Shown: in pieces, positions 4,463 through 25,541 of the stretch
How the letters are laid out: the number at the start of each line of letters is the position of its first letter
Position numbering within the stretch: the first letter of the stretch is position 1
DNA from: Aeromicrobium sp.
Lineage (GTDB): Bacteria; Actinomycetota; Actinomycetes; Propionibacteriales; Nocardioidaceae
Assembly: GCA_025965115.1 (NCBI GenBank)
Contig: JAOPXO010000053.1
Span: forward strand, 1 to 55,090
Length of the DNA: 55,090 nt
Direction of reading: 5' to 3'
Position numbers and translations under genes: made by a program
The notes under the pieces: generated by a model
Database searches by the model: none
What the model saw: the letters and a program-made list of their open reading frames with translations, nothing else
What the model was told of the DNA's origin: nothing

Positions 4463-5070
4463 GCTCCAACTCCCATGCAGTCGCGCAGACGGACGATTCC
4501 GTCGCGCATCCGCGTCTTGACGGTGGCGGTGTTCGCTCCGAGGCTTTCGGCGACTTCGGCGTACGTGAAGCCCTTGTAGTAGGCCAGGTTGACGGCCTCG
4601 CGTTGGAGTTCGGTCAGGCCGTCGAGACAGCGACGCACCTGCTCGTGCTCAAGGCTGATCGTCACGGTTTCCTCGACCTCGTCGAAGTCGGGACCGTTGG
4701 ACCAGTCGTACTTGTTCTCGCGGTTGGTCGCCGCCTGGTCGTGCCTCACGGCATCAACAGCTCGGCGGTGCGCCAGGGTCAGGATCCAGCTCTTGGCGTT
4801 GCCTCGAGCTGGGTCGAACCGGGCAGCGGACTTCCACACCTGGATGAAGACCTCCTGGGAGATCTCCTCGGCCCGTGACGGATCGCGAACGACTCGACGT
4901 GCCAATCCATAGACCGAAGCGCCTAGGGCGTCGTAAATGGCTGCGAAGGCCTGCTCATCGCCGCGTGCGACCAGCAGGAGCAGATCGCCGAGATCGAGGG
5001 GGCCGCCGGCTTCCGGAGAATCTGCGAGCCGCAGGTGGGTCACAGCTGACTGAGACGCAGTGGGTGCCAC
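4459..5070 (-). CDS. sigK: ECF RNA polymerase sigma factor SigK type
   Basis: Sigma-70 regions 2 and 4 (AEEISQEVFIQVWKSAARFDPARGNAKSWILTLAHRRAVD). ORF extends to 5157, but GTG 5070 has a strong SD (AAAGGAGA). Confidence 0.85.
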   Translation of the reverse strand: MAPTASQSAVTHLRLADSPEAGGPLDLGDLLLLVARGDEQAFAAIYDALGASVYGLARRVVRDPSRAEEISQEVFIQVWKSAARFDPARGNAKSWILTLAHRRAVDAVRHDQAATNRENKYDWSNGPDFDEVEETVTISLEHEQVRRCLDGLTELQREAVNLAYYKGFTYAEVAESLGANTATVKTRMRDGIVRLRDCMGVGA

Positions 5071-22954: not shown

Positions 22955-23731
22955 GTGTCCGGCAGCTACCTCGACTCCCCCACTCCCCTGGCATTCGCGC
23001 ATCGTGGCGGTTCGGGGGTCAAGGACAACCTCGGCATCGAGAACTCGCTGGCCGCGTTCACCCACGCGTATGCCCTGGGCTATCGCTACCTCGAGACGGA
23101 TGTGCGTTGCACCTCTGACGGCGTGGTCCATGTCTTCCACGATGAAACGCTCGAACGGATGACCGGCAGCTCCGACAGCTTCGTCTCGCTGACCTCAGCG
23201 CAGGTCGAGGCCGAGCGCCTGGGCGGGCGCGAATCCATTCCGACACTCAGCTCGCTCTACGACGCGTTCCCGGACGCTCGCTTCAATATCGATGTGAAGT
23301 CCGACGACGCGGTGGATGCGACCTGCGCGGTGATCGAAGCGCATGGAGCAGTGGAGCGTACGTGCCTGGCGTCCTTCTCGCACTCCCGCCTGAGTCGCAT
23401 TCGCCGACGACTCCCCGCGGTGGCGACCTCGGCATCGACTCGCGAGGTCACCTTGGTCAAGCTCCTGCCGACGTTCCTGCTGCGGGCCTGGGGCGTGCCG
23501 AAGAGCGTATGTCTGCAGGTCCCGGCGAGACACAACGGCATCACGGTCGTCACCCGGCGCTTCGTCACGCGCGCGCACTCGCTGCACCAACAGGTTCACG
23601 TGTGGACCATCGACGACGCAGCCGAGATGACTCGGCTGCTCGATCTTGGCGTCGACGGCATCATCACCGACCGCACGGACATCCTGAAGGACACGCTCGT
23701 CGCCCGTGGCAGCTGGAGGGATCCCGCATGA
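22955..23731 (+). CDS. Glycerophosphodiester phosphodiesterase family protein
   Basis: AFAHRGGSGVKD.LGIENSLAAFTHAYALGYRYLETDVRCTSDGVVHVFHDETLERMTG. Confidence 0.9.
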   Translation: MSGSYLDSPTPLAFAHRGGSGVKDNLGIENSLAAFTHAYALGYRYLETDVRCTSDGVVHVFHDETLERMTGSSDSFVSLTSAQVEAERLGGRESIPTLSSLYDAFPDARFNIDVKSDDAVDATCAVIEAHGAVERTCLASFSHSRLSRIRRRLPAVATSASTREVTLVKLLPTFLLRAWGVPKSVCLQVPARHNGITVVTRRFVTRAHSLHQQVHVWTIDDAAEMTRLLDLGVDGIITDRTDILKDTLVARGSWRDPA

Positions 23732-25080
23732 ACAAGACGGCCAATGCCGAGCAGAAATCGTGGTTCTACTACGACTGGGCCAACTCGGCCTACATCACCA
23801 CGATCGGCACCGTGCTCTACGCGCCGTACCTCACGAGTGTGGCCGAGAAGTCGGCGTGCGGCTTCGCCGGCACCGACGACCACAAGTGCACGACCAATCT
23901 GCACGTCCTGGGGCTGTCGGTGTCCGCCGGCTCGCTGGTCTTCTACATCGTCACGGTCTCGACGATCATCTCGGCATTTGTGCTGCCGATCGTGGGCGCG
24001 ATCGCCGACCGGGTCGAGTCCAAGAAGACGATGATGGCCCGCCTGGCCTGGGCCGGCTCGTTCTTCGCCGCATTGATGTTCTTCGTCACCGGCAGCAACT
24101 GGCAGTTCGGCGCCGCCCTCCTGCTGGTTGCCAATTTGTTCTACGCATCGTCGTTGGTGGTCTATGACGCGATCCTGATCGACGTCGCGCCGCCCGACGA
24201 CCGCGACCGCATCTCGTCGCAGGGCTGGGCCTTCGGTTACCTCGGTGGTGGGTTGCTGCTCGCGCTCAATCTGGCGCTCGTGACAGTGAAGCCGTTCGGG
24301 CTCTCCACAGAGTTCGCCGTGCGCATCAGCCTGCTCTCGGCGGCGATTTGGTGGGCATACTTCACGCTCGTTCCATATCGCGGCATCAGGGACCGGGCGC
24401 CCACCGGCGTCGTGCCGGCCGAAGGCGCGACGTTGCTGCAGCGCAGCTTCGGACAGCTTTATCGAACCCTCAAGGAGCTGCGTCGCTATCCGCAGACGCT
24501 GCTGTTCCTGGTCGCCTACCTGTTCTACAACGACGGCATCCAGACGGTGATCTACTCGGCGTCCGTCTATGGCGACAAACAGCTCGGCTTCGGCACCAGC
24601 GTGTTGATCGCGGTGATCTTGATCGTGCAGTTCGTGGCCTTCGCCGGAGCATTGATCTTTGGCCGACTCGCGGCCAGGATCGGCAGCCACCGTACGATCC
24701 TCGGCGGCCTCGCCGTATGGGTCCTGGTGGTGTGTCTCGCGTACTTCCTGCCGGTCAAGCAGATCGCGCCCTTCCTGGTGCTGGCGGTGGCGATCGGACT
24801 CGTGCTGGGCGGCACCCAGGCGCTCTCGCGGTCGTTCTTCTCCCAGCTCATCCCGCGCGGGCGTGAGGCCGAGTACTTCAGCCTCTATCAGGCCTGCGAG
24901 CGTGGCACGAGCTGGCTGGGCACCCTGGTCTTCGGCGTCGTGCACCAGCTCACCGACTCGTACCGTCCCGCGATTCTGGCCCTGATCGCCTTCTTCGTGA
25001 TCGGTGGAGCCTTGCTCTGGAAGCTCGACCCCGACCGAGGAATCGTGGAGGCGGGCAACAAACCACCCTCGCTGGTGTGA
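23728..25080 (+). CDS. UMF1/Atg22-like MFS transporter
   Basis: SWFYYDWANSAYITTIGTVLYAPYL; 12 TM segments; ATG 23728 overlaps upstream TGA. Confidence 0.88.
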   Translation: MNKTANAEQKSWFYYDWANSAYITTIGTVLYAPYLTSVAEKSACGFAGTDDHKCTTNLHVLGLSVSAGSLVFYIVTVSTIISAFVLPIVGAIADRVESKKTMMARLAWAGSFFAALMFFVTGSNWQFGAALLLVANLFYASSLVVYDAILIDVAPPDDRDRISSQGWAFGYLGGGLLLALNLALVTVKPFGLSTEFAVRISLLSAAIWWAYFTLVPYRGIRDRAPTGVVPAEGATLLQRSFGQLYRTLKELRRYPQTLLFLVAYLFYNDGIQTVIYSASVYGDKQLGFGTSVLIAVILIVQFVAFAGALIFGRLAARIGSHRTILGGLAVWVLVVCLAYFLPVKQIAPFLVLAVAIGLVLGGTQALSRSFFSQLIPRGREAEYFSLYQACERGTSWLGTLVFGVVHQLTDSYRPAILALIAFFVIGGALLWKLDPDRGIVEAGNKPPSLV

Positions 25081-25101
25081 CCCACGCCCCGCTCACTTAG
25101 G

Positions 25102-25127
25102 GGAATCTCATGTGCGTCCCCTACGTT
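25102..25127 (+). promoter_or_regulatory. SigR/SigH-type promoter of rbpA
   Basis: GGAAT (25102-25106) - 18 nt - GTT (25125-25127). Confidence 0.7.
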
Positions 25128-25163
25128 GAAGAGGTTGAAGGCCTATGAGAGGGGACGCACATG
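25109..25163 (+). repeat. Perfect 14-bp inverted repeat enclosing rbpA SD and start codon
   Basis: CATGTGCGTCCCCT (25109-25122) and AGGGGACGCACATG (25150-25163), 27-nt loop; right arm contains AGGGGA and the ATG. Confidence 0.9.
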
Positions 25164-25541
25164 GCTGAACGTGCATTGCGAGGTGCTCGACTCGGAACTC
25201 AGAGTTTCGAGGATGAGCGCGGAGTGGAGATGGCTCCCCGCCAGCAGGTCGAGTACGTCTGCGCCGATGGGCACACGTTCTCGGTGACGATGGCTGACGA
25301 GGCCGATATTCCATTCGAATGGGAAGACCCCAAGACGGGGATGGTCGGTCAGCGCGTCGAAGGTGGCGAACCGCTCATCAAGAATGAGAAGCCGGTCCGC
25401 ACCCACTGGGACATGCTGTTGGAGCGACGCTCGGTTGACGAGCTCGAAGAAATCCTCACTGAGCGGCTTGAGCTGCTCCGTGGTGGTGAGATCGGACCGC
25501 CACACCTGCACCGACCCAGCAAGAAGAAGAAATCTGCCTGA
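25161..25541 (+). CDS. rbpA: RNA polymerase-binding protein RbpA
   Basis: MAERALRGARLGTQSFEDERGVEMAPRQQVEYVCADGHTFSVTMADEADIP. Confidence 0.96.
   Translation: MAERALRGARLGTQSFEDERGVEMAPRQQVEYVCADGHTFSVTMADEADIPFEWEDPKTGMVGQRVEGGEPLIKNEKPVRTHWDMLLERRSVDELEEILTERLELLRGGEIGPPHLHRPSKKKKSA

Follow-up and report, generated by a model that had tools for sequence, protein, structure and literature searches.

We asked whether the promoter of rbpA, the gene for an RNA polymerase-binding protein, could also determine which rbpA messages are translated in a species of Aeromicrobium. The window, meaning the whole 55,090-nucleotide stretch of DNA that was analysed, corresponds to contig C92 in the host genome, G000, a MAG of Aeromicrobium (3.03 Mb, 88% complete). 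Around position 25,100 it contains a promoter, an inverted repeat and the rbpA start site in overlapping arrangement, made up of the following elements, all on the plus strand:

23731..25080, +, co-directional MFS (Atg22-like) gene, from which read-through would enter rbpA
25102..25127, +, SigR/SigH-type promoter of rbpA (-35 GGAAT at 25102-25106, N18, -10 GTT at 25125-25127)
25109..25122, +, left (sequestering) arm CATGTGCGTCCCCT, within the promoter spacer
25110..25148, +, possible 12-codon uORF, sequence MCVPYVEEVEGL and stop, which would occur on long transcripts only
25123..25149, +, 27-nt loop, within which lie the -10 element, the putative TSS and the greater part of the short leader
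25150..25163, +, right arm AGGGGACGCACATG, holding the SD AGGGGA and the rbpA start codon (ATG at 25161)
25161..25541, +, rbpA, RNA polymerase-binding protein, 126 aa (PF13397, E 8.8e-40)

The initial annotation had described a perfect 14-bp inverted repeat holding the rbpA SD and ATG, and all of its coordinates were confirmed: the arms are complementary at 14/14 bp (100%). The direct repeat GTTGAAG-AG-GTTGAAG that it placed in the loop is likewise present, at 25125-25140, and relatives are without it. A point it missed is that the -35 region AGGGGAATCTCATG (25100-25113) itself resembles the SD-ATG block; the -35 AGGGGA is able to compete for TCCCCT (repeat I2). Matches to Rfam leader families were sub-threshold and at chance level, and none reached the gathering score.

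A search of 400 kb from a sister genome for perfect inverted repeats, 14 bp or longer and with a loop of at most 60 nt, gave two, and a Markov control gave none. With chance rates drawn from those 400 kb and the window, and a few percent allowed for overlap with a start codon, we estimate about 0.01 such repeats per window of 55-kb size. A perfect repeat over a start codon is therefore unlikely in this one window, yet would not be astonishing had a large number of windows been scanned.

The SigR-type promoter of rbpA

All 47 Aeromicrobium leaders that we examined carry the motif GGAAT-N18-GTT in front of rbpA, in most cases at 26-54 nt from the ATG. On the tree of an 18-genome clade, the -35 columns have 0 changes and the columns around GTT 0-1 each, compared with about 6 per column upstream. 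Genes for SigR (TIGR02947, 350.9 bits) and RsrA (TIGR03988, 86.5 bits), both exceeding the cut-off, are adjacent on contig C217. A strict form of the motif occurs six times in the host genome versus 0 times for a reversed-pattern control, and SigR-type motifs also lie upstream of thioredoxin, alternative ribosomal protein L36/L33-like and MFS exporter genes in the host and its relatives, product likeness being judged from N-terminal sequence. Because the motif is common to all 47 leaders, the case from sequence for assigning the rbpA promoter to SigR is strong, and it is the firmest part of our analysis. Thus, the SigR/SigH-type promoter proposed in the initial annotation, with the left arm inside its spacer, stands. 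So does the statement that rbpA is under SigR control in Streptomyces: in Streptomyces coelicolor, a RIViT-seq study verified rbpA biochemically, in vitro, as a gene that SigR targets directly (PMC9205884). In Mycobacterium tuberculosis, rbpA belongs to the SigE regulon (PMC10027907).

The position of the promoter would place the TSS at about 25133-25136; our search for literature on rbpA 5' ends in Aeromicrobium found none. Upstream, the MFS stop codon at 25080 lies 20 nt before GGGAAT. No terminator was found between the two, and a consensus search found no Sigma-70-type promoter in the region. Because the MFS stop is close and a recognisable terminator is absent, we infer that long RNAs reach rbpA from upstream.

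Four further features were observed in the course of this analysis. The SigR -35 sits in a longer block, at 25097-25110 near CTCAGGGGAATCTCA (TTAGGGGAATCTCA in the host), that is almost invariant before rbpA across Aeromicrobium and also in some other genera of the family, and is absent from the other SigR-type promoters of the clade; the block may reflect an extended -35 or contain an additional binding site. At locus L129, an MFS exporter gene stands behind a SigR-type promoter; the palindrome TACCGTCCAGACGGTA directly follows that promoter and a small helix-turn-helix-like regulator gene is placed divergently, an arrangement that suggests an efflux gene under double control. Another RbpA paralogue, divergent at 42% identity (L002, G000:C148:20781-21104, minus strand), has counterparts in nearly every searched genome of the family. 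The window also carries a further ECF sigma-like gene (4471-4917, minus strand) with a weak TIGR02947 match of 49.9 bits.

Predicted occlusion of the rbpA start site

These elements suggest a mechanism in which a SigR-dependent promoter drives rbpA and has in its spacer a stretch that can pair with the rbpA SD and start codon. Messages started at the putative TSS would be without the left arm and would be translated. RNA entering from upstream, whether by MFS read-through or from any earlier promoter, would carry both arms, and the 14-bp stem formed across SD and AUG would make it a poor template. The net effect would be that SigR gates RbpA output in the host species.

Folding predictions agree with this scheme. 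On the long RNA, the SD and start codon fall within a predicted stable stem. No part of the left arm extends outside the interval from -35 to -10, which would leave the promoter's own transcript without the 5' arm. The 120-nt leader has an MFE of -48.6 kcal/mol, 2.9 sd below dinucleotide shuffles (z -2.9). The initial annotation had argued that RNA with the left arm hides the SD and that RNA starting after GTT leaves it free, and this was borne out in silico: the mean unpaired probability of the SD/AUG is predicted to stay at 0.04 wherever the 5' end lies from -250 to -52, and to climb to 0.35-0.48 once the 5' end is past the left arm. None of 100 spacer shuffles was as closed as wild type, and none of 120 other gene starts from the window and sister genome, where gene calls are rough, was as closed as rbpA. 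The arm duplex, at -30.2 kcal/mol, beats all 46 other genus spacers tested on the host start site. Because this predicted closure is unmatched by shuffles or other starts, and because perfect repeats of this kind are rare, any long rbpA RNA of the host species is probably a poor translation template. For occlusion of long rbpA transcripts in the host species as a whole statement, we put the chance only just short of even.

The stem among relatives and competing explanations

A perfect stem was found in the host alone, 1/18 clade genomes. G021 (Aeromicrobium sp. Root472D3) has 14 pairs, one of them G-U, and most clade members keep 11-13 of the 14, G044 for example 13 and G047 11. Predicted closure exceeds that of spacer shuffles in most members; in G047 and G025 the start site is predicted to be no more closed than in controls. 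Standard pairs make up 87.7% of clade pair cells, versus 31-64% in slid controls. The right arm is identical in 15/18 members, and the three lineages in which it has changed all have fewer co-linear pairs. The left arm shows 1.6 changes per column in the clade versus 6.1 upstream, and its most variable columns, 18-20, face the SD G-run. Both arms have changed in G013, which we considered as a case of compensatory evolution and found suggestive only: 13 pairs can be drawn by eye with two bulges, at a predicted openness of 0.26 versus 0.52 in controls.

The main rival explanation is coincidence among parts that are constrained anyway. The -35, the AGGGGA SD and two CATG tetramers would be fixed for other reasons, and slow spacer evolution in the clade would leave a few species with strong complementarity that regulates nothing. 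We regard this as a serious possibility, though below an even chance, and several comparisons agree with it. Pairing was preserved no better than under simulated independent evolution (P 0.21-0.34). Covariation in the clade alignment came to a single two-sided change, a G-U switch in G030, and 49/500 shuffles scored equally high. Spacers outside the clade are likewise slow relative to their flanks. Beyond the 18 genomes no stem was found, and foreign spacers pair with the start sites there as well as the native ones do. The gene context is nonetheless the same: the stem-less rest of the genus retains GDPD-MFS-rbpA as its gene order, and wherever the flank was long enough to check, the MFS gene before rbpA is co-directional with it. 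Spacer-SD pairing as a general feature of the SigR regulon was also rejected, other SigR-type promoters of the clade having none. The signature expected of a maintained RNA switch is absent from these alignments, in a sample whose power is low because the right arm hardly varies.

Three features are set against coincidence. A perfect 14-bp stem across SD and AUG is rare. Spacer positions 10-17, a range picked post hoc, have 12 changes in the clade, where the remainder of the genus would predict 22.5 (p 0.06 when scaled by tree length, 0.008 when taken as an upstream-normalised share). G021 has TCCCCT amid a group with TCATCT, and its SD-pairing bases (CCCC) were therefore gained separately. 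The slow positions and the separate gain would favour selection.

Two unrelated types of MFS gene occupy the position before rbpA, with about 80% or about 27% identity to the window copy depending on the Aeromicrobium species, as if one had replaced the other in situ. A link between stem and MFS type was rejected, as stem-bearing genomes have both types and stem-less genomes share the layout.

Taken together, the sequence comparisons argue weakly for a selected regulatory switch, and we consider such a switch rather unlikely. The initial annotation had read the repeat as a promoter-choice switch that insulates rbpA from read-through. The promoter and the occlusion in silico uphold that reading, and conservation speaks against it, the stem being confined to one clade, mostly imperfect and paired no better than simulation. 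Of the conservation and covariation in close relatives that the annotation had named as a check, the former is seen in part, as the mostly imperfect stem of the clade, and the latter amounts to the one two-sided change. Our best reading from the comparisons is a lineage-specific arrangement that would represent a recent refinement or a coincidence rather than an established switch. The fullest proposal is that the spacer of an ECF-sigma promoter doubles as a start-site complement, that only SigR-initiated rbpA messages are translated and read-through is silenced, that the -35 mimics the SD-start block, and that the whole arose recently within Aeromicrobium, giving a chromosome the kind of switch that T4 has in its late genes. 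In this complete form we think it unlikely.

Two other readings are minor. On the long RNA, the -35 AGGGGA could act as the SD for the ATG at 25110, with AGGGGA-N5-ATG spacing identical to that of rbpA itself; ribosomes on the 12-codon uORF would open the stem and stop at 25148, beside the rbpA SD and 12 nt upstream of the rbpA ATG, and rbpA would be translated by coupling. However, stop and frame vary among relatives, and the uORF start itself lies within the stem. A frame ending just before the rbpA SD exists in the host genome only, most clade members running out of frame into rbpA and two being without the ATG, and we rejected a conserved uORF. Coupling is thus very unlikely; that ribosomes starting in the left arm could open the stem was nonetheless counted against the occlusion reading. 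Least probable of all, and without support for its place as the alternative in the initial annotation, is a DNA operator at which a repressor binds the inverted arms over promoter spacer and start codon: the arms do overlap with the promoter, and their starts are separated by 41 bp, close to four turns of the helix, but they are not palindromic in themselves, the left varies among relatives while the right does not, and the arm sequence recurs in the genome just once, with a single mismatch.

Were the switch reading of occlusion true, SigR would gate RbpA output at two levels, transcription and translation, and rbpA would be insulated from the neighbouring gene, with both jobs done by one promoter spacer. 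Promoter spacers, usually regarded as free sequence, would then be able to carry RNA-level information. The clade provides a natural set of long and short, paired and unpaired variants for a direct test.

Comparison with known systems

IS10/Tn10 is protected from external promoters through fold-back of read-through RNA, and rbpA read-through RNA is similarly predicted to hide its own start site. Unlike rbpA, IS10/Tn10 is a mobile element, its arms come from the IS end and it has no nested alternative-sigma promoter. Promoters of the Streptomyces SigR regulon (GGAAT-N18-19-GTT) share the motif, its spacing, the target gene and the SigR/RsrA pair with the host; a sequestering arm, which the host has, is not described in the accessible portion of that work (PMC9205884).

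The closest likeness is to phage T4 gene e (lysozyme) and its relatives soc, I-TevI, segB and mobE, in which an RBS-sequestering hairpin has a late promoter nested within its 5' strand (PMC3014915, PMC2988022). RNA from the nested promoter of gene e is without the 5' strand, and repression of the longer RNAs made early is about 100-fold (PMC3014915); similar arrangements of hairpin and promoter occur at I-TevI, segB and mobE (PMC2988022). As in gene e, the rbpA promoter lies in or near the DNA of the 5' strand, a long RNA would contain the full hairpin, and the SD and start codon are in the stem. For gene e, the long RNA, its 5' ends and its repression were measured and the structure is kept in related phages, whereas the rbpA case is known from sequence and folding prediction. 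Further differences are that rbpA is cellular, that its promoter is of the ECF sigma type and that the stem is clade-limited. The nested-promoter hairpin is already known from phage T4, and what rbpA would add is a clear chromosomal case with an alternative sigma factor.
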